Part shown: in pieces, positions 51,346-64,000 of the stretch
How the letters are laid out: each line of letters opens with the position of its first letter
How positions within the stretch are numbered: position 1 is the stretch's first letter
Assembly (NCBI RefSeq): GCF_018873765.1
Contig: NC_057925.1
Span: 7,823,568-7,887,567, forward strand
Source: Telopea speciosissima
Taxonomy: Eukaryota; Streptophyta; Magnoliopsida; Proteales; Proteaceae
DNA length: 64,000 nucleotides
Direction of reading: 5' to 3'
The notes under the pieces: generated by a model
Seen by the model: only the letters and a program-made list of their open reading frames with translations
What the model was told of the DNA's origin: nothing
Databases searched by the model: none
Program-made: the position numbers and the translations under genes

Positions 51346-53817
51346 CTTAAATGGAGGACTTTGACTTTACATTTCGAGTCTCATAGACACAAAGAACGAT
51401 CTATGATAGGCTTGGAATTCCTAGACCATAATGATAGTGGTCTGTTAGATTCAAATGGAATGCCGACAGTTCACTCAAACAGCTGACCTCTGACCCCATG
51501 AGTTCCTCTTAGCCGTATATAGTGATGTTATGCATACAACTAATTGTGCTTATAGGTCATAGAGTTCACTTTCATAGGGAGAAGGATTAATGATCTAAAT
51601 AGTGATTATTTATTTATTTATTTTTTAACGAAATCTAAATAGTGTTTATTGTTTTATACTGTAATTAATAAAGTAGTAAAACCCCCCACTTTCTGCATGT
51701 TAGCCAAGTGGGTGCAACCAAATGGCCTACAGTGGTTGTAGGGTCCACATTTACCATGATCGAGAAAAACATTTTTTGATTATTTCATGTCAATCTCTCT
51801 CATTCTCACACGAAATGATCTTGCTGCCCTTTGATGTAGGATAGGTTCTCCTATACCGTTTGCTCAGAGAACCCTCTCCCTTTGGTAAATACAAAAGGAT
51901 CTGGCTGATCAATACCTCTAGTAGGAAAAGGGGTGGGTGTTTGGCTTCATTTGCGTGAATTTCATATTATTTAGTATGAACTTCAAATGTTTTATTAAAT
52001 TACTCATTTATTCCTATCACTTGTGAAATCTAATGCAATATTCTTACTTGTAATGAGAAGGATTTAGTTATTCTTTAGTCCATGTGAAGAAAGAATCTCT
52101 TTATCGATGGTGATTTTAATTGGCGCTATTATTAGACTCTAGGAAGAGTGGATGCCAATATTAGTTACTTCAATTCCCCTATCAATGAAGGCCCAAAATA
52201 CCCTTCTCATCAAGGCTGGTTAAGAAAAACTGGGTCAGAATGAAAATGAATTTTTTTTGTTATTGTAATAGATCAGAATGAAAAACTAGAAAAACTAAGG
52301 CAATGTTTGGTATGAATTCTTGGAATGCATTCTAAGTCAAATTCGTATTCTCAAATGATAAAAATAGTTATTTTTATGGCTCAAAAATGCAAGATTGACA
52401 TAGAATGCATTCCAAGAATGTATTACGAGTTATGACCACCCTTGAGGTGTCACAAAGATTTTCCCAATATGGCCCAAGTTTTGCCTAATGTCTGGTCTGT
52501 CACTTTGTTGTGGGTTTGAGGCTCATTCAGTCAGTGTCAATCCACTGGGTTGGTCAAGGTCTTGGATCTTCATGATAACAAAATCCAAACCAGCCCAAGC
52601 CCAGTAAGAAGCCCATTATTGAGCCAAGGGAACCTTCTTGGACCAATCATTGAAGGAGAACCACAGCAGGTTCACCAATCTCCCATATACCAGTTTCTAA
52701 TGTGGTTAAATTAGTTAAGGCGAAATGTTTCCTATGGGGGTGTACTGCCATACCCAGACACAGAGAAGGGGGACGGGGATGACTGCCAGATTGATGCTTT
52801 CGCATGAGCTCTTATTGGTCCCACGTGTGCTGGGGCCATGCTCCCTCGCAAGAGACACTTTCCATTAGTTAATCCCACTCGTACGGTAGCTATTAATACA
52901 TAAGTGGAAGACATCTTCTTTTGTCGAAGGAAGAGGATTTTCTGAGCAAGCGACATAGGGGAGGAGTGCACCAGTGAAGTGAGGCAATATGATATCGTAC
53001 ATAGGAGGGCAGAAAAAGTCATTTAATGTGAGAAGGAGACATTTACACAAAGGGTACTAGAACATTATCCGTTTGAAGAATTACATGAGGGGTTTTTGGG
53101 GAAATGTGAGTGTATGGTGTACCCGTACTCAACCCTGGGCCAGGATTTAAGACCAGGCCTTAGTTGGGTCGAGTCTAGGTGGGATATTTTCATGTAGCCC
53201 ATTGGGCCTAGAACCAAAATCAGCCCAAGTTATACCCCAAAATCTTATTAAACATTTTGACCAACAAAAAAAAAGAAGAAAAAAGAAGCTATTGCTCATA
53301 AATTTAAAACGAAACTTTGTTGGACTTTCAAGTTTCAACCACTCACCCACTACAAAATAAAAATAAAAAACAATTGATTCTTGCCTCAATAAACTCTTAA
53401 AAAATTTGGATGAATATAATTTCAAATTAATATACTAAAAAGAATTTCAACAATTATTGTGCATAAATTTAAAAGGGGATTTTTCTTGAAACCCTTGAAA
53501 GTGTCAAATAATTTGTAAATTTACTTTTCGGCCTTTCTAGTGTAACGTACTTTTTTCTTCGATGAGGGTAAATTTTGTTATTTCACATGTGCACTAAATT
53601 TTTTTTCAAAATAATGACAAATTTGGATAATGAGAGAATGGTAAGTCATTTTCAAATTATTTTGAAAACCCTTTTTTACTCTTAACATAAAGAATTTCAG
53701 GAATAAGACAAGGGGCAATCAAAAGAAAGTGTCAACTTCTAAATACTGCTTTGTAGGTGTCATTTAGGCAGTCCTAATTTAAAAAATATAAGAAAAATAT
53801 CTATATCTAAATATTAT
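51346..53817. other. Intergenic, no gene seen
   Basis: A MITE of the gtttggtatgcattcttgg family lies at 52303-52440 and a weak foldback at about 52735-52870. The remaining frames match no family I know. Confidence 0.45.
52303..52440. mobile_element. Foldback MITE (gtttggtatgcattcttgg family)
   Basis: The left arm gtttggtatgaattcttgga pairs with gcattccaagaatgtat on the right. This is the fourth member in the window. Confidence 0.8.
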
Positions 53818-54012
53818 AGGGAGAAAGAATGCCACTTGGTCGTGCCAGACATGCCGCCCCTACCCCCCCTAACACATGCACATGCAAACTAACTGCCAGT
53901 CTGCCACACTCCTAGTCATTTTCAAGGTTCAAGGGGGAGTGACGGTCATATCACATAGCCTTGTGTCAAGGCGTGAGGGCGGCGCTGCACGACCGGGTGG
54001 CGTTCTCTTTTC
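53818..54012. mobile_element. Foldback MITE with ends gggagaaagaa
   Basis: The ends gggagaaagaatgccactt and gtggcgttctctttt pair, and the inner tggtcgtgc pairs with gcacgacc. It is a close relative of 25344-25509 and lies at the left border of the MADS array. Confidence 0.8.
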
Positions 54013-54049
54013 CATATTTATATTAATAAATATAAATAAAAAAAATTGA

Positions 54050-55310
54050 TAATTCAAACTAGTTGTGGGCGGTACACTCTCCCACATTAAACTTATCTCC
54101 AAACTTTTATAATCATAATTGTTTAGTTATCTTAAATGCTCACAAATATGGTAATTGAACTTCTTATATGGAATCTTGTCCAAGGAATTGATTGCAAAAT
54201 ACAAATTTAATGATCAAATTTGGTATAAACTTTTATAATCATAATTACATAGTTATCTTAAACACGTACAAATATGGTATTCGAATTTCTTAAATGCAAT
54301 ATTTACCAAGGAATTGATTGCAAATTGTCAAATTTAAAATCCAAATTAAATGGTTAAATTCCCTTCATTTTATATCTCTTGCATCCAAACGGAGCCTATA
54401 TAAATTTTTGAGAGCTTACCAATAAAACGCCAGATATAAGGTCGTGAAAATTGGTTGCATTGATGACCAGGAGGATACAAATGGTGGTGTGTCAAAGAGG
54501 GACCAACAAGCTGAATAGCCTCTTTGGTACCATGGCGTAGAGAGCCGGACTAGCCTCTTTGAGAATGTTACTTGACGAGCAGCTTCCTTTGTGATTCTCT
54601 TCATTTCTATCTTCTGGTGCCTCCCTTTGCTTGATCTCCTTTTCAACCATGATCGAAGGGACTAAGGATGAATTAATAGAACACTCACAAATTGAGGTCA
54701 AGTGACAATTGTGAAAGGAGAAAGCAATAAGAACAAGATGGGAGATGACTTATTCTTGTTGCTTTCTACTCCAATGGCTAAAAAAGGCAGTACTGATTGT
54801 CGGCCTTCCTTCTCCACAAACATAGACTATGGGTACCAAGGTAGTAGAATTTGTCATTTCTCCATTAAATCGCTCACCATGACCTGCACATCCGATTGAA
54901 ACACACAAGATGATATATCAACTTCCTAACACAAGGGTATTATTTCTTATGTCATCATTTGGGATTTTCCGGTAATTATTCATATGCAGTAGAAAAATTT
55001 GTTATAAGAATTATCTTTTTGGAAATGCATTTCTCAAGTTTGACGATATTGTGCAAAGAAACATAGGAACCAAACGGTTATTATTTATGATCTATAATTT
55101 GTTTTTATAAATTATTTTTTATAAATAGTCCAAGAATACAAATAGAAACTATACCAAAAAGAGCCTTATAGTCCTAACTCCCTAATACATTATGCTAGTT
55201 CCTTAAAATTTCTTTTGATGTAACAATAAACCATGAAGATAGACTTGCCCCATATCTAAACATTCTTTGATCGAATTGGAATCGAGAGTGTGTTTTCTTT
55301 TCATTAACTT
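54050..55310. repeat. Left arm of palindromic MADS unit A
   Basis: Segments of this arm recur inverted on the other side of the intact MADS gene: 54350-54480 with 58660-58790 (aggtcgtgaaaattgg, cctatataaatt), 54820-55080 with 57500-57735 plus 58162-58250 (actatgggtacc, tttggaaatgcattt), and 55080-55285 with 57100-57315 (gatatggggcaag, inverted). The same arm type begins units B (59060) and C (63310). Confidence 0.85.
54540..54650 (-). pseudogene. Type I MADS-box fragment in the left arm of unit A
   Basis: From an ATG at 54650 the minus strand begins MVEKEIKQ. One frame over, it reads RSSKGRHQKIEMKRITKE and ARQVTFSKRLVRL, the first half of a MADS domain. A frameshift right after the start and loss of everything past the SKR block make it a relic. 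A near twin lies at 63745-63857 in unit C with the same flanks. Confidence 0.85.
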
Positions 55311-55778
55311 AAAAAAAATGTTAATGATGTTCTATAATTACCGTTGTTAATAATATACTTTTAGTACAATAAATATATTACCGCCACTAAAAATTATGTT
55401 AAGACTCACATGTAATGGCGGCAAAACCATTATCGGCAAGAAAAGGTCATCCTCAAAAGTGGAAATAAAATAATGAAAGATATTCTACATTTGTCATATT
55501 ACTTTGATGCATGCTCATTTCATTGTATTCCTATGGGAGATCAACTCTGTTACTGACTCCTTAGCAATGAAGGTCCTATCGGTAAAGTGTAAGACAATTT
55601 GGCCGAATTTTACTCCATGATTGGAGGAACCATACGGCACAACAATTATGTATTCTCCACGTTCTTATGAATGAATTTCGTTTTACCAAAACAAAAATAA
55701 TGCTACTAAACATGTAAGGTTAACATAATCTTATTCATCAAAAAAAAAAAAAAACATAATCTTTAATGGTGGTATTGC

Positions 55779-56348
55779 TTAGCTTCCAAGCCCATTATGG
55801 AATCCAAACCCAAAACCATGAGGAGCAATAACAGCATTGTTCACAGTGGTCCTAGTGTTCATGAGTAGGCTTTCCTTCATGTAGCCCACCGCGAATTTCA
55901 AGTGTTGCAGATCCTCCAAGTCAAGGGTGTCCAAGGGGTCTTCCCACCATAAATCACCATTGTTAGCATTTAGTACTGGTGCTTTCAGTTCCTTACCCTT
56001 CATCTCTCCGTCCTCTAATTGGGTGACGATATCCGTATATCGTCTAGTAAGCTCTGGTACATTGGCTTCATGATTAATACTTGGAAGGACACTTGGTTCC
56101 TGTGGTGTGCCTCTGTTGACGAATCTGTCTATAACAGTCTCAACAGAAGGGTGTCCAAAAGAAAAAACAGTGCCCGCTGGGGAGGAAAGAAGGATGGCAA
56201 TCTCTGCACCACATAAGCTGTAGAGCTCGTTGGCCTTCTTGAAAAGCCCAGCTCTACGCTTAGAGAATGTGACTTGAAGATATTCTTCATTGCGGATCTT
56301 CTTCATTTCGATCTTCTTGCGTCCCTTGCTAGATCTGTTTTCTGCCAT
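55779..56348 (-). CDS. Type I (M-alpha) MADS-box transcription factor, AGL61/AGL62-like, intact
   Basis: The protein is 189 aa from one exon, as usual for type I MADS genes. Residues 1-60 are the MADS domain (RKKIEMKKIRNEEYLQVTF, SKRRAGLFKKANELYSLCG, EIAILLSSPAGTVFSFG), which binds CArG-type DNA as a dimer. After it comes the M-alpha signature HPSVETVIDRF. The C-terminal half has a short acidic/helical stretch (DTLDLEDLQHLKFAVGYMKE) and ends GFGFHNGLGS. The family acts mainly in the female gametophyte and endosperm. The frame is open 49 codons further upstream to 56495, but that part runs through the likely TATA box and is hydrophobic, so the start at 56348 (MAENRSS) is preferred. It sits in the centre of a palindrome of more than 4 kb. 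Confidence 0.92.
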   Translation of the reverse strand: MAENRSSKGRKKIEMKKIRNEEYLQVTFSKRRAGLFKKANELYSLCGAEIAILLSSPAGTVFSFGHPSVETVIDRFVNRGTPQEPSVLPSINHEANVPELTRRYTDIVTQLEDGEMKGKELKAPVLNANNGDLWWEDPLDTLDLEDLQHLKFAVGYMKESLLMNTRTTVNNAVIAPHGFGFGFHNGLGS

Positions 56349-56460
56349 GATGGATGATGCTTGGTAATAGTTGCAGAAGGAGGCTGAGAGGATGGTGAGT
56401 GAAGAAAGCAATGAGAAGAAGAAGAAGAAGAGGAATGACGACATGAGAAGCTTGTAAATG

Positions 56461-56472
56461 CTATTTTTATAA
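56461..56472 (-). promoter_or_regulatory. Probable TATA box of the intact MADS gene
   Basis: The minus strand reads ttataaaaatag about 113 bp upstream of the ATG. The paralogue in unit B keeps the same word (ttataaaatag at 59579-59588) in the same relative place, which supports it. Confidence 0.65.
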
Positions 56473-57742
56473 TCGAAACTTATGTTTGTTTTCATTCATT
56501 TATTACTATAATAAATCTTATATTTCCAATTTAGTACTAAATTTAAAATTAAGGAAAATTATCTTGGCAATATCTTTATTGAAATGCATTTACTACTTTA
56601 TTAAATCGTATATTTCCAATTTTTTTTTTGGGCAAACATATTTCCAATTAAGTTAATATTAAATTAATCTATGAGATTTTTTATTTATTCCTAATTAATT
56701 GTTGAAACTATTTTTTGTATTTACTTTTTTATTATATATCTATCAAATTTATAGTAGTTTATTGAGGTAAAAACTCAAAAAAATTAATTATTGTGGATGA
56801 GTGGGTAAAAGTCTATAAAGTTGCTCTAAGCTGCAGCTCCTTCAACCATATCTAACATGTTACATGTGGCAGATCATGTGGAGCCTAAATTTTAGGGAGT
56901 GAGGTCCCACACTCTTTTTATGAGCCACATTTGGGCTCTATTGAGGTGTAAAATTGCTCTATTAATTTGCTTCACTTTCAACCAAACAAACCTCTAGTGA
57001 TCCACTTATAAGATGTGCTCTGCTTCGGTATTTGACAAGAAATTGTAAATAAAAAATGAAGAGAGAGAGAGAGAGAGAGCTCGATTCCCGATTTTAATTC
57101 GACCAGAGGAATGTTTAGATATGGGGCAAGTCTATGTCCATGGTTAATTACTATATCAAAAGAAATTTTAAGTAACTAGCATAATGTATTAGGAGTTAGG
57201 ACTATAATGCTCTTTTTGGTATAGTTTCTATTTGTATTCTTGGACTATTTATAAGAAATCATTTATGAAAACAAATTATGGACTTATGTGTCATAAATAA
57301 TAACCGTTTGATTACTATTAGATATAATAAATTATAAGGAAATGGTTCTCTGAGCAAGCAAGGTATTCTACACCCTTTCACATTGATTATTTTAATCATT
57401 CTTTCTCTCTTTTAAAAAATATAATAATCCATGTGAGAATGCAATGTACACTTAGGCTCAGTGAGCCTTTTCCCTAAATTATTAAATGACAAATATGTTT
57501 GGTAGAACTATTTGTAGAAAAAATCCAACAAACTTTTTCGGTTCCTCTATTTTTTTGCACAATTTCGTCAAACTCGGGAAATGCATTTCCAAAAAGATAA
57601 CTCTTACAACAAATTTTCCTACTGCATATGAATAATTACAAGAAAATCCACGATTAATGATATAAGAGTTAATACCCATGTGTTAGGAAGTTGATAAACC
57701 ATATTGTGTGTTTCAGTCGGGTGTGCAAGTCATGGTGAGCGG

Positions 57743-58161
57743 TAGGGCTGCAACAGGGTCAGGTTGGGTCGGATTTTTTAAAATCCTAATCCAACCTTGA
57801 GTCCCTATAGCTAGGCACCAGGCCCGGCCCTGACTCAGGGCCAAAAAAATCCAACCCTGACCCACCCTCAAGGCCGGGCTAGGCTGACCTTGATTGGCCC
57901 TAATCATGGGGAGGGGGAAGGGAGATGCCCAAGCTGGGTCAAGCTGGGGAGGAGAAGAAGAAGAAGAAGAAAAAGAAAGAACAAGAAAAGCAAGAAGACA
58001 AGATTGGGCTGGGCTGGACTCACCATGAGGCCTAAACCCTAGCCCTGAGTCAGGGTTAGAAATTATAAGCCTAACCCACCCCTAGTGCCTGTATATCTCA
58101 ACCTAGGCCCTGTTCAGGTTCAAGGTGGGCTCAAGCTATCAGGGCCAAACGTGCACCCCTA
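57743..58161. mobile_element. hAT-like MITE with 8 bp target-site duplication
   Basis: The flanks gtgagcgg (57735-57742) and gtgagcag (58162-58169) differ in one base. The ends tagggctgcaac and gtgcaccccta are inverted in type. The interior carries gcccggccctgactcagg and a GAA-rich stretch. Without it, the surrounding arm matches the left arm continuously. Relatives are at 24610-25200 and 62955-63107. Confidence 0.9.
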
Positions 58162-58314
58162 GTGAGCAGTTCAATGGAGAAACGACAAACCCTACTACCA
58201 TGGTACCCATAGTTTATGTTTTTGAGCAAGAAGCTATAACACTTTTGAGTTGTTGGAGGCAAGGTGTAGGCGGTGCAGGTCCTTCCCCTTGTCTCTGTCT
58301 CTTCACGTTTCATC

Positions 58315-58566
58315 TAGGGGTGTAAATGAATAGCCGAAATCCGTTTCCGTATCCGTTTAGCACTATCCGAATCCGTCCGACAGCTAAACAGATGCGGATA
58401 CGGATAGGCTATAGCTATCCGAAAAGCTATATTTACATGTAAACGGATAAAATATCCGATCCGTATCCATATCCGTTTAGCACTATCCGAATCCGTTCGA
58501 TAGCTAATCAGATGCGGATGCAGATATAGCACTATCCGAGCCGAATTCGATCCGTTTACAACCCTA
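58315..58566. mobile_element. hAT-like MITE with perfect 8 bp target-site duplication
   Basis: gtttcatc occurs at 58307-58314 and 58567-58574. The ends taggggtgtaaa and tttacaaccct(a) are inverted repeats. The interior has repeated words tccgtttagcactatccg. A sister copy is at 62615-62872. Confidence 0.92.
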
Positions 58567-59059
58567 GTTTCATCATGATATGACGTTCAACCTCTCGTTC
58601 AACACATGATTAAGAGGTAAATATAAGAAATCTGAAGATTTCAATTCTAGAAGCAAGTGTCCTCCTAGTCGTCAATGCATATCATGGAGCCAATTTTCAC
58701 GACCTTACCCCACGTTATATTGGTAAGTTCTCGGCAATTTATATGGGCTCTGTTTGGTTGCAAGAAATATAAAAGGAAGTGAAGTAAATTTAACCAAATT
58801 TGGATTTAAATTTGGCATTTTGTAATCAAATCCTTGGAAAATATTCCATTTAAGAAATTTGAATACCATATTTGTATGCGTTTAAGATAACTACGCAATT
58901 ATGATTATAAAAGTTTATACCAAGTTTGGTCATTAAATTCTTCATTTTGCAATCCATTCCTTGAATAGAAGAATCATGGGGAGTAGGATTTTTGCCTTTC
59001 ATTGGGGGTAGGGTTGTCATTTTGCTCCCCACTATGTGGGCATGGCCGCATGGGCATTA

Positions 59060-59330
59060 CTCTCTCCTACAGGAAACTTTTCTCCAGACTTTTAAAATCA
59101 TAATTGCATAGTTATCTTAAAAGCATATAAATATGGTATTCAAATTTCTTAAATGAAATCTTTTCCAAGGAATTGATTGCGAAATTCCAAATTTAAAATC
59201 CAAAACATACTTCTCTTCCTTTTATATCTCTTGTAACCAAACGAAGCCTATATAAATTGACGAGAGCTTACAAGTATAACGCCGGCCGGATAAGGTCATG
59301 AAAATTGGTTCCACGATAGACTCATGAGAA
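59060..59330. repeat. Left arm of MADS unit B
   Basis: It follows the same order as the start of unit A: aaacttttctcc, cataattgcatagttatctt, ttttatatctcttg, then cctatataaattg and aggtcatgaaaattgg. It is inverted relative to 58660-58930 and 63110-63250. Confidence 0.85.
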
Positions 59331-59578
59331 TGCTGGCATAGGCCACACTCCCGAACAGAGTTATTTTCCATAATTATAAATATAAGATTTATCAAAATAG
59401 TAAATGCATGCATGGCAATAAAGTTATTGCCATGATAAATTTCATTAAGTCAACGAATCTTAAATTTCATAAAATTTAAATTTAGTATCAAATTGGAAAT
59501 ATAAAATTTATTATAGTAATAAATGCAGACAAACAAAGATAATGCTAAGATAATATTCATTTCTAGATAAGTTTCGAT

Positions 59579-59588
59579 TATAAAATAG
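59579..59588 (+). promoter_or_regulatory. TATA box of the broken MADS gene in unit B, now cut off from its gene
   Basis: The sequence gattataaaatag matches the TATA region of the intact paralogue. A 414 bp MITE begins five bases downstream (59593), moving the ATG from about 140 bp to about 555 bp away. Confidence 0.65.
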
Positions 59589-59592
59589 AATT

Positions 59593-60006
59593 GGGGAAAG
59601 TTTTCATACACGGCTTATAGAATTTTTATCCGCTATTGTAACTGGAGCGCTGCTGTGCGCATCGTGCGGTATAGCATGGGCCATGTGTGCACAGCGGGCC
59701 CCACTGTGCGCACATGGCCGCGGCTACGCCACACGATGCGCACAACAGCGCTCCAATTACAGCAACAAATAAAGGTCCCAGCTTACACAACCGTGTATGT
59801 GAGAGGGTGGGAATTTCAAGGCATTAACTAATGGGTGGGGATTTATGAGTCTATGACTTTTCCAACTCTTTGTGCAGGGGTGAGGTCATCATTTTTACCC
59901 CTCCTATGAGAGGAACCTGTGCACCTGACCAGGCAGGGAACCTGAGAGGAGAACGATCTGAACACGACCATGCATGCTTACACGACCGTGTATGAAAACT
60001 TCCCCC
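59593..60006. mobile_element. Mutator-like MITE with 9 bp target-site duplication, upstream of MADS unit B
   Basis: aatagaatt occurs at 59584-59592 and 60007-60015. The ends ggggaaagttttcatacac and gtgtatgaaaacttcccc are inverted repeats. Inside lie a second foldback (about 59630-59770, arms ggagcgctgctgtgcgcat and atgcgcacaacagcgctcc) and a piece of the cctctaataggggg-related family (about 59850-59960), so it is composite. Confidence 0.9.
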
Positions 60007-60458
60007 AATAGAATTTACCAACTTCTCATATTGTCATTCCTTTTCTTCTTCTTCTTCTTTTGATTGCTTCCTCCACTGTCTATTCTCTCAACCTCCTTCT
60101 ACAACTCTGCTTGATACATCTTTATTCCCAAGCTTCCATCATGGTAGAAAGAAGATCCAGCAATGGGCTCCGGAGGACTGCAATGAAGAAGATCCACAAT
60201 CCAGATGCTCTTCAAGTCACATTCTCGAAGCGGAGAGCTGGACTTTTCAAGAAGGCCAACGAGCTCTACAACTTATATGGTGCAAAGGTCACCATCCTTG
60301 TTTCCTCCCTAGCGGGCACTGTTTTCTCTTTTGGACACCCTTCTGTTGAGACTGTTATAGACAGATTCCTCAATACAGGCACACCACAGGAACCAAGTGT
60401 CCCTCCAAGTATCGATGCTAATCGTCAAGCCAATGTACCGGAGCTTACTAGGCGATAT

Positions 60459-62072
<1,614 letters not shown>

Positions 62073-62614
62073 GGCGATATACGGATGTCGTCACCCAATT
62101 AGAGGAGGAAGACCCCTTGGCATGGACACCCTCGACTTAGACGATCTGCAACACTTGAAATTCGTCGTGGGCTACATGAAGGAAAGCCAAACCAAGAATG
62201 GTTTTGGGTTTGGATTCCATAATGGGCTTGGACCTACGCGTTTTTATATCGCTCTCTCGAAGTCCAACCTGTGTTGTTGTAAATCTGAGGTAAAAATTAA
62301 GGATGGGCTATGGGCTTTGACACATGGCTTATGAACTTTGGGTCCATCTAATTAAGAATGGTAGCAGCAAGACTAATCCTTAAGGTAGCATCAAATGATT
62401 GTCCAGGAACGCTTTGCAATTGTAAGCACAAAGAGTGAGACTTCTTGATAAGGTCCTGTTCACATAGCCAGCAATTAAAGCCCAAATTGAATTTGGTGAT
62501 GGGTAAAATAAAGCATTCTAGGATATGTTCTGGACTGTTGGACTTCTACATTTAGGTCCATAAATGACCAGAAGGCCCAAAACTAGCTCTTTGTTTTATC
62601 ATCAGGGGTCTTGT

Positions 62615-62872
62615 TAGGGATGTAGATGAATAGCCGACATCCGTTTCCGTATCTGTTTAGCACTATCCTAATCCATCCGAAAGCTAAACGGATACGGATA
62701 CGGATAGGCTATAGCTATCAGAAAAGCTATATTTACATGTAAACGGATAAAATATCCTATCTGTATCCATGTCCGTATCCGTTTAGCACTATCCCAATCA
62801 ATCTGAAAGCTAATCGGATGCGGATGCAGATATAGCACTATCCGAGCCGAATCCGATCTGTTTACATCCCCA
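62615..62872. mobile_element. hAT-like MITE, sister of 58315-58566
   Basis: The flanks ggtcttgt (62607-62614) and ggtctagt (62873-62880) differ in one base. The ends tagggatgta and tacatcccca are inverted repeats, and the interior matches 58315-58566 along its length. Confidence 0.9.
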
Positions 62873-62954
62873 GGTCTAGTCTCTGCTTGTCATATCAAAT
62901 CGGAGTCTTTGAGATTATTTATCACAACAAAATTAGTAATCCAACCTATGAAAA

Positions 62955-63107
62955 AAGTAATAAAAAGCCCGGCCTGACCCTGAAGGCAGGCCAGGGTTGG
63001 ATTTTTAGGCCCTAAGTCAAAGTCGGTCCAGGCCTGGGCCCATCTAAGGGAAGTCAGGGTTAGGCTGGGGTTTTAAAAAGCCCAACCCAACCCTGTTGCA
63101 GCGCTAG
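62955..63107. mobile_element. Truncated MITE, inverted relative of 57743-58161
   Basis: Read on the minus strand it starts with ctgcaacagggttgggttgg and runs through ccctgacttcccttag and ccaaccctggcctgcc, like the first third of 57743-58161, then stops. Confidence 0.75.
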
Positions 63108-63109
63108 TT

Positions 63110-63250
63110 GCAAGAGATATAAAACAAATGGTTGCAAGAAATATAAAAAGAAGGGAAGTACATTTAACAAAATTTGAATTTTATATTTGGTATTTTGCAA
63201 TCAATTCATTGGAAAATATTCCATTTAAGAAATTTGAAACGTGTGTAGAA
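63110..63250. repeat. Right arm of MADS unit B
   Basis: It begins at ttgcaagaaatataaaaa and runs to ttccatttaagaaatttg. It is inverted relative to 59060-59330 and in the same orientation as 58780-58870. A junction segment to unit C follows (agaatcatggggagcagg). Confidence 0.8.
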
Positions 63251-63309
63251 GAATCATGGGGAGCAGGATTTTTGCCTTTAATTGGGGGTAAGGTGGTCCC
63301 CCCCACTAT

Positions 63310-63720
63310 GTGGGTGCGGGCGTTACACTATTCCACGGGAAACTTTTCTCCAAGCTTTTAAAATCGTAACTATGTAGTTATCCTAAACGCTCACAAAGAT
63401 GGTAATTGAACTTCTTAAATGGGGATAGGGTGGTCCCCCCACTGTGTGGGTGTGGACGTTACACTCTCCCACAGGAAACTTTTCTCCGAACTTTTAGCAT
63501 AGTTATCTTAAACTGTCACAAAGATGGTAATTGAACTTCTTAAATGAAATCTTGTTGACCAAACTTGGTATAAACTTTTAAAATCATAATTGCATCTCTT
63601 AAACGCATACAAATATGGCAATAATTTCTTAAATGGAATTTTCCTAGGAATTAATTGCAAAATTCCAAATTTAAAATCCAAATGTGATAAATGTATAACG
63701 AAGCCTATATAAATTGGCGA
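63310..63720. repeat. Left arm of MADS unit C, with an internal repeat
   Basis: The arm start (aaacttttctccaagc, then cacaaagatggtaattgaac) occurs twice, at about 63340-63420 and 63475-63550, separated by a repeated g-rich piece. It then follows the usual arm order to cctatataaattggcgag. Confidence 0.8.
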
Positions 63721-63744
63721 GAGCTTGCAAGTATAACGCAACAA

Positions 63745-63857
63745 GGCGGAGAGAGCCCAACTAGCCTCTTCGAGAATGTTACTTGACGGGCAGCTTCCCT
63801 GTGATCCTCTTCATTTCTATCTTTTGGTGTCTCTTGCTTGATCTTCTTTTCCACCAT
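63745..63857 (-). pseudogene. Type I MADS-box fragment in unit C
   Basis: Minus strand from the ATG at 63857: MVEKKIKQ, then across a frame change ARQVTFSKRLVGL. It is a twin of 54540-54650 including its 5' flank (gaagaacaagatgggg-like words to 63950). The rest of unit C lies beyond the window. Confidence 0.8.
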
Positions 63858-64000
63858 GATTGAAGGGACTAAGAATGAATCAATAGAAGACTCCCAGATT
63901 GGGGTTGAATGACAATTATGGGTGGAGAAAGTAAGAAGAACAAGATGGGGGCCGGGATGACTTGTTCTTGTTGCTTTCTGCTCTCATCACCATTGTCTCA

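Follow-up and report, generated by a model that had tools for sequence, protein, structure and literature searches.

Introduction

Type I MADS-box genes are described as forming clusters under birth-and-death evolution (Nam et al. 2004, as cited in PMC13293092 and PMC4329201). We analysed a cluster of MADS genes in a window of 64,000 nucleotides from Telopea speciosissima (NC_057925.1, hereafter C10; C10:7823568-7887567) and in the DNA to its right, which has in common with those clusters its single-exon genes, its local grouping and its combination of duplication with pseudogenization. It differs from them in the direction of growth: the main texts of the two papers speak of tandem duplication and do not contain the word "inverted", whereas growth here appears largely inverted, with promoter-like arms on both sides of single genes. 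Among the open-licence papers listed in our literature searches, none described a palindromic or inverted type I MADS array.

Inverted duplications formed by fold-back or related mechanisms have been described in the human genome (PMC3907307, PMC10766186). They share with the present locus inverted copies of one stretch at a single place but are human, while the MADS events are old and known from their outcome alone. Inverted duplication has also been described as a source of microRNA (MIRNA) genes, among them miR824 (with AGL16) and MIR163 (with its promoter) (PMC1790633), and MIRNA or hairpin small interfering RNA (siRNA) loci have been traced to inverted duplication of a protein gene (PMC3237417). 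In rice, hairpin siRNAs arise from inverted pseudogene pairs (PMC2708354), and siRNA control of type I AGL genes has been described in the seed (PMC11649575).

The initial annotation of the window had proposed palindromic cassettes, a transposon-like carrier with MADS genes as cargo, and had named duplicated inverted gene pairs as a second option. We find that the second option fits the evidence best, and we consider it likely that the locus is a type I MADS cluster shaped by repeated rounds of local duplication, inverted as well as tandem, and by later decay.

Results

The genome comprises 822,943,500 bases in 1287 contigs. In addition to the window, we read the 40 kb to its right (window coordinates 64001-104000) and 40 kb of a second contig, C4 (54405001-54445000), chosen as the next best MADS gene copy in the first genome search. 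Segments were labelled R (outer arm), J (junction), I (inner arm), H1 and H2 (MADS 5'-end fragments) and U and D (5' and 3' gene flanks), and coordinates are listed in Table 1.

Repeat searches and BLAST both recovered the inverted arms that had been proposed around the intact MADS gene, A. Inverted matches pair 54181-54478 with 58963-58657 (82%), 54871-55074 with 57741-57537 (87%), 55063-55287 with 57318-57086 (88%) and 54805-54877 with 58233-58162 (84%). Aligned as a whole (54181-55286 vs 57080-58963, leaving out H1 and three stretches of miniature inverted-repeat transposable elements, MITEs), the two arms are identical in 721 of 804 ungapped columns and reach a local alignment score of 803, whereas 100 mononucleotide shuffles never scored above 42. 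Unit A reads R+, H1, I+, D, the MADS gene on the minus strand, U, I- with nested MITEs, MITE2 and R-, and its first R copy, a1, starts with the last ~37 bp of the dispersed MITE-like repeat J.

The broken MADS gene, B, had been placed between the same arm types. R does flank it on both sides (59088-59318, plus; 63129-63238, minus), but the right arm amounts to just 110 bp and the inner arm is missing. Unit B consists of R+, a 5' flank, the broken gene on the plus strand, a 3' flank with MITE2, and R-, and is preceded and followed by J; unit C begins with R+, H1 and H2 and continues with additional fragments. The junction between units recurs as described (58966-59155 vs 63246-63421, 77%), but the period of about 4.3 kb is not a unit length, since it includes a 1.6-kb transposon (~60459-62074) and a 0.26-kb MITE (62615-62873). 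Both are missing from the right-hand tandem copy, where the B-type unit consequently measures 1.8 kb (79076-80860). The 4.3-kb period is therefore accidental, and a repeat unit of that size is ruled out.

Units B and C lie in a tandem segmental duplication (59.05-75.8 kb vs 79.08-93.8 kb, with spans of 15-17 kb and an offset of 17-20 kb) whose copies are 94.1% identical left of 65 kb (2985/3173 columns) and 93.0% identical right of 69 kb (5317/5716). On C4, positions 54415938-54427488 are collinear, in inverted orientation, with unit A, J and the next R arm, at ~71-94% identity depending on the segment. MITE1 is present in the C4 copy and MITE2 is missing, leaving an empty site. The C4 inner arm beside D is cut to ~45 bp and followed by H2, H1 and R, while C10 has a long inner arm and no H2; the simplest ancestor would have been D-I-H2-H1-R, with the C4 and C10 copies each losing a different part. 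The order R-H1-H2-I recurs in C', with additional insertions between its members, and R-H1-I in the left arm of A.

A tree of the R copies groups them by position: (a2,c2) with support of 0.76, (a1,c3) with 0.94, (a4,a7) with 0.95, (a5,a8) with 0.97 and, near c1, (a3,a6) with 0.71. The two arms of one unit are not sisters. These groupings suggest that the palindromes are older than both the C10-C4 and the tandem duplication and that no homogenisation of arms within a unit has followed. We also considered gene conversion as a process that maintains the likeness of paired arms, but the pattern does not support it.

Both genes of the window match the Pfam family SRF-TF (PF00319; E 2.3e-20 for A and 1.1e-17 for B), in agreement with the identity first assigned to them. 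Gene A is one open frame of 189 aa from its ATG, open upstream as far as 56495, and SRF-TF is its sole Pfam match at E 0.001, so that it appears to have a single short exon and to lack the K domain of MIKC genes. We presume these type I genes to be M-alpha-like. The right-hand tandem copy of gene B, B', is still open over 172 aa although it has two in-frame deletions relative to A. A and B' are thus open, and B, C/C' and the C4 copy are broken. The C4 gene has an internal stop codon and is also split by an insertion bounded by 206-bp direct repeats (98%; 54421132-54421337 and 54425760-54425964) that looks like a young long terminal repeat retrotransposon. As a gauge of constraint on the MADS genes, Nei-Gojobori ratios in six comparisons among A, B, B' and C4 ranged from 0.56 to 1.09, values that are weak and include broken copies. 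The remark in the initial annotation that such an arrangement gives type I MADS genes a concrete route of birth and death stands.

The outer arm R resembles the promoter region of a MADS gene. In B', R ends at 79426 and the ATG lies at 79639, 213 bp away, and in unit C, R ends at 63739 and the MADS start in H2 lies at 64049, 310 bp away; because R stands near the starts of an open copy and of H2, we read it as a promoter region. Of 11 R copies, 7 contain the motif TATATAA; the relevant part of R is missing from a4 and a7 and altered in a2 and c1. In gene A the distance from R to the start is 2.3 kb because I and MITEs intervene. Where R lies inverted 3' of a gene, it would then be the promoter of a convergent neighbour that has since been lost. 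In the C4 copy, H2 is a MADS 5' fragment positioned under an inverted R and in convergent orientation to the MADS gene, as expected of such a neighbour. We additionally observed a MADS fragment at C4:54415785-54415901 (E 9e-5, local profile), just inside arm c1 and in the orientation opposite to that predicted from c1.

Table 1. Features at the right end of the window (window coordinates)
Feature	Position	Strand	Remarks
Outer arm R, copy a1	54064-54480	+	left/downstream of gene A; internal ~126-bp tandem subrepeat
H1, MADS 5'-end fragment	54531-54775	-	half of H1-H2 palindrome; partner H2 missing here
Inner arm I, left copy	54776-55302	+	without MITE3
D, 3' flank of gene A	55303-55778	-	common to C4 copy (77%)
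Intact type I MADS gene A	55779-56348	-	189 aa from ATG at 56348
U, 5' flank of gene A	56349-57085	-	proximal part recurs upstream of gene B
Inner arm I, right copy	57086-58314	-	interrupted by MITE3 (57323-57536) and MITE1 (57746-58161)
hAT-like MITE1	57746-58161	.	inside right I; flanks GTGAGCGG/GTGAGCAG
hAT-like MITE2 in unit A	58315-58567	.	duplicates 8 bp (GTTTCATC); site empty in C4
Outer arm R, copy a2	58600-58963	-	upstream of gene A
Junction J	58967-59090	.	truncated copy; dispersed MITE-like family of ~200 bp; R arm on each side
Outer arm R, copy a3	59051-59318	+	upstream of gene B; overlaps end of J
Broken MADS gene B	60141-62232	+	pieces 60141-60458 and ~62050-62232, split by 1.6-kb terminal inverted repeat (TIR) transposon
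1.6-kb TIR transposon in gene B	~60459-62074	.	duplication GGCGATAT; ends CTTAGTTAGTAAGT
MITE2 in unit B	62615-62873	.	independent insertion, 0.26 kb; not in tandem copy
Outer arm R, copy a4	63129-63238	-	3' of gene B; 110 bp left
Second junction J	63246-63352	.	follows unit B
Outer arm R, copy a5	63315-63739	+	TATATAA at 63706
H1 and centre of H1-H2 palindrome	63742-64000	+	runs on to ~64170, past the window end

The mirror-image arrangement could also be a by-product, if R and I were low-copy repeats that inserted independently and in both orientations beside an ordinary MADS cluster. Several sequences in or beside the arms do belong to families dispersed in the genome (J, ~200 bp and MITE-like; MITE3; ~100 bp at 55064-55170), as does MITE2, and gene B has no I. 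Short diverged pieces of R (54-78 bp at 78-85%) were found at C9:38.35, C2:19.10 and C10:47.40 Mb, and one further piece of 64 bp in locus L065. However, longer R or I matches were confined to C10:7.88-7.91 Mb and C4:54.42 Mb among the best candidates scored, in searches with arms and junctions that skip very common words, scored 40/89, 40/6602 (the query containing MITE2), 40/98, 40/308 and 38/38 candidate places and may miss weak copies. The closeness of R to the MADS starts in B' and C and the order R-H1-(H2)-I kept in several copies also argue against independent insertion, which we regard as unlikely.

If the units were instead non-autonomous TIR transposons carrying a MADS gene, with R or R and I as long terminal inverted repeats, they would be foldback- or Pack-MULE-like. 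Like Pack-type and foldback TIR transposons, they hold genes between inverted repeats, since R+ and R- bracket both A and B. Foldback elements have internal tandem subrepeats, and R has such subrepeats too; the unlinked copy on C4 and the short R pieces elsewhere also fit a mobile element. The ends of the units do not. At all five pairs of unit or block ends tested (30-bp flanks, one chosen coordinate per end) no shared string exceeded 5 bp, whereas four nested elements show 8-bp duplications in their flanks when read by eye: exact for MITE2 in A and for the 1.6-kb element, and with one mismatch for MITE1 and for MITE2 in B. Three of these four also have empty sites, in C4 for MITE2 in A and in B' for the 1.6-kb element and MITE2 in B. 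Unlike a Pack-type or foldback family, the full arms showed no dispersed copies among the candidates scored; they were found with no other cargo, and R and I accompanied none of the other MADS places found in the genome search. The C4 block, moreover, comprises one unit together with the adjacent arm, and the arms at its ends (c1 and c3) are direct and not inverted. The missing duplications, the lack of dispersal and the shape of the C4 block make a transposon carrier very improbable, and the palindromic cassette of the initial annotation fits poorly. The recognisable transposons in the cluster are nested passengers.

Assembly artefacts in the form of false inverted duplications can be dismissed almost entirely: misassembly is common at inverted repeats, but the arms here are 10-18% diverged and hold different nested insertions, and much of the arrangement is repeated in the C4 copy.

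Two of the passengers in unit B merit separate description. The 1.6-kb TIR element holds a captured piece of a cytochrome P450 gene, 95.5% identical over 605 bp to C5:8716090-8716694, where an open reading frame matches Pfam p450 (E 1.2e-6); its other genomic matches fall on its two ends. The 5' flank of gene B contains a 125-bp self-palindrome (83%) at 59637-59761, in a stretch missing from B', which is probably a MITE.

Inverted arrangements were also sought at other MADS genes. In a scan of 18 MADS loci (L029-L046), an inverted match of at least 100 bp was present in seven, one of which, L030, is gene B of the window; L031, L033, L034, L038 and L042 each contain one ~175-bp self-palindrome and L044 a pair of 190-bp arms. 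At C10:57.34 Mb there is another, separate MADS palindrome, arranged head to head, in which 57343505-57344727 matches 57344831-57345950 in inverted orientation (79%, arms of 1.1-1.2 kb). Each arm holds one MADS 5' part (57344621-57344370, minus; 57344932-57345180, plus). About 3.3 kb to the left there is a third copy, which is partial (C10:57339337-57340181). Neither R nor I was found in this palindrome, and H1 and H2 resemble its MADS 5' end (72-76%). Inverted duplication has therefore occurred more than once in the family in this genome. Elsewhere on C10, the M-alpha matches at 11354432-11432450 repeat at an exact offset of 68,430 bp (11354432/11422862; 11363796/11432226), which suggests that another MADS array recently underwent a large tandem duplication.

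At the right end of the window and beyond it, H1 and H2 form two close inverted copies of a MADS 5' end, with 105 and 130 bases of the arms aligning to it at 73 and 75%. The stretch 63742-64170 folds as a hairpin of 165 predicted pairs, with a minimum free energy of -221 kcal/mol vs a mean of -124 in 60 dinucleotide shuffles (z -15); the other strand reaches -191 (z -18). Same-sense folds of the C4 and C' copies give -175 (z -13) and -127 (z -12), and their other strands -163 (z -13) and -107 (z -7), respectively. H1 alone, in the left arm of A, is unremarkable (z -1.5 and -1.8). The stem begins 36 bp past the start of the TATATAA in a5. R and the stem are 1.4 kb apart in C'. Within the stem, 21-mers match gene A with one mismatch in the sense and two in the antisense direction.

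Between C and C', R and the stem differ by 7 mismatches in 472 columns, vs ~6-7% elsewhere, a likeness noticed after the fact. Of 327 overlapping sliding windows between the tandem copies, eight reach at least 98.7% identity; seven touch the stem and the eighth is 62250-62399. This may reflect constraint, a conversion tract or chance variation in rate. A first test for selection on pairing found fewer broken pairs than its null in three of five comparisons (P 0.001-0.009), but that null conditions on a paired reference, which favours differences that leave pairs intact, and is biased. We therefore counted G-U against A-C at imperfect pairs in copies C, C4 and C', which is less biased. The counts were 14:9, 15:12 and 8:4 with the pair map from C, 14:16, 10:15 and 9:8 with that from C4, and 8:6, 8:9 and 7:4 with that from C', none of them significant.

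No Rfam family reached its gathering score in L009, in the window at 52000-64000 or in the C' and C4 hairpins (the window copy was searched as two separate segments). Unrelated MIR models gave weak matches (best E 5e-10, at 55 bits where 230 are needed), which reflect the hairpin shape. Beside H1-H2 on C4, a short hairpin at 54427166-54427237, within a 177-bp self-palindrome, scored 47 bits against Rfam mir-1258, below the gathering threshold of 74.

Discussion

The arrangement of the locus is most readily read as the outcome of repeated local inverted and tandem duplication in a type I MADS cluster, followed by decay. The original inverted copies would probably have formed at a break, through fold-back or template switching, and unequal exchange between repeats would probably account for the growth that followed. 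Where the coding part of an oppositely oriented neighbour was lost, only its inverted R would remain, leaving single genes between inverted promoter copies.

Several observations weigh against this explanation. Other M-alpha arrays lie mostly on one strand: 15 of 16 matches (not genes) at C10:11.35-11.66, 5 of 5 at C4:12.75-12.79 and 4 of 4 at C5:16.32 Mb, the lone opposite-strand match, at C10:11507472, being half of a head-to-head pair with 11507799. Inverted growth is therefore not the general habit of the family. The inner arm I contains dispersed repeats (55064-55170 and MITE3), and part of it may be inserted. The stretch from gene B to its right arm yielded no MADS coding remnant, which leaves 110 bp of R as the evidence for a lost neighbour at that place. 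The orientation of H1 is opposite to that expected of the lost gene and calls for a separate inversion. Finally, support in the R tree is moderate for (a2,c2) and (a3,a6), and one deep branch has a support of 0.00.

H1-H2 shares with MIRNA and hairpin-siRNA loci two close inverted gene 5' ends, here from a MADS gene, that stand beside an apparent promoter copy and form one long hairpin. It differs from MIRNA loci in being known from sequence alone, and in that the less biased test gave no sign of selection on pairing. AGL16, the gene named with miR824, is a type II MADS gene. That a hairpin derived from a gene might serve as a source of small RNAs is a known kind of idea. We offer as a long shot that H1-H2, with its copies in C' and C4, could be a self-made silencer, a hairpin transcribed from the MADS promoter copy whose small RNAs would target the cluster as well as type I MADS genes elsewhere. 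The close likeness of R and the stem between the tandem copies and the 21-mer matches to gene A speak for this reading.

If this were true, inverted growth of the cluster would yield both new genes and their own repressor. A hairpin of a gene's own start beside a promoter-like copy is the proposed starting material for new small-RNA genes, and should the hairpin prove to be expressed, the connection between the birth of genes and that of repressors could be tested at a single locus. The cluster also illustrates that mirror-image promoter-like copies around single genes can pass for transposon ends. The locus is instructive yet of an ordinary kind, with one testable by-product, and it gives a base-by-base view of a fast-evolving family of plant regulators that likely grew here by inverted, and not merely direct, duplication.

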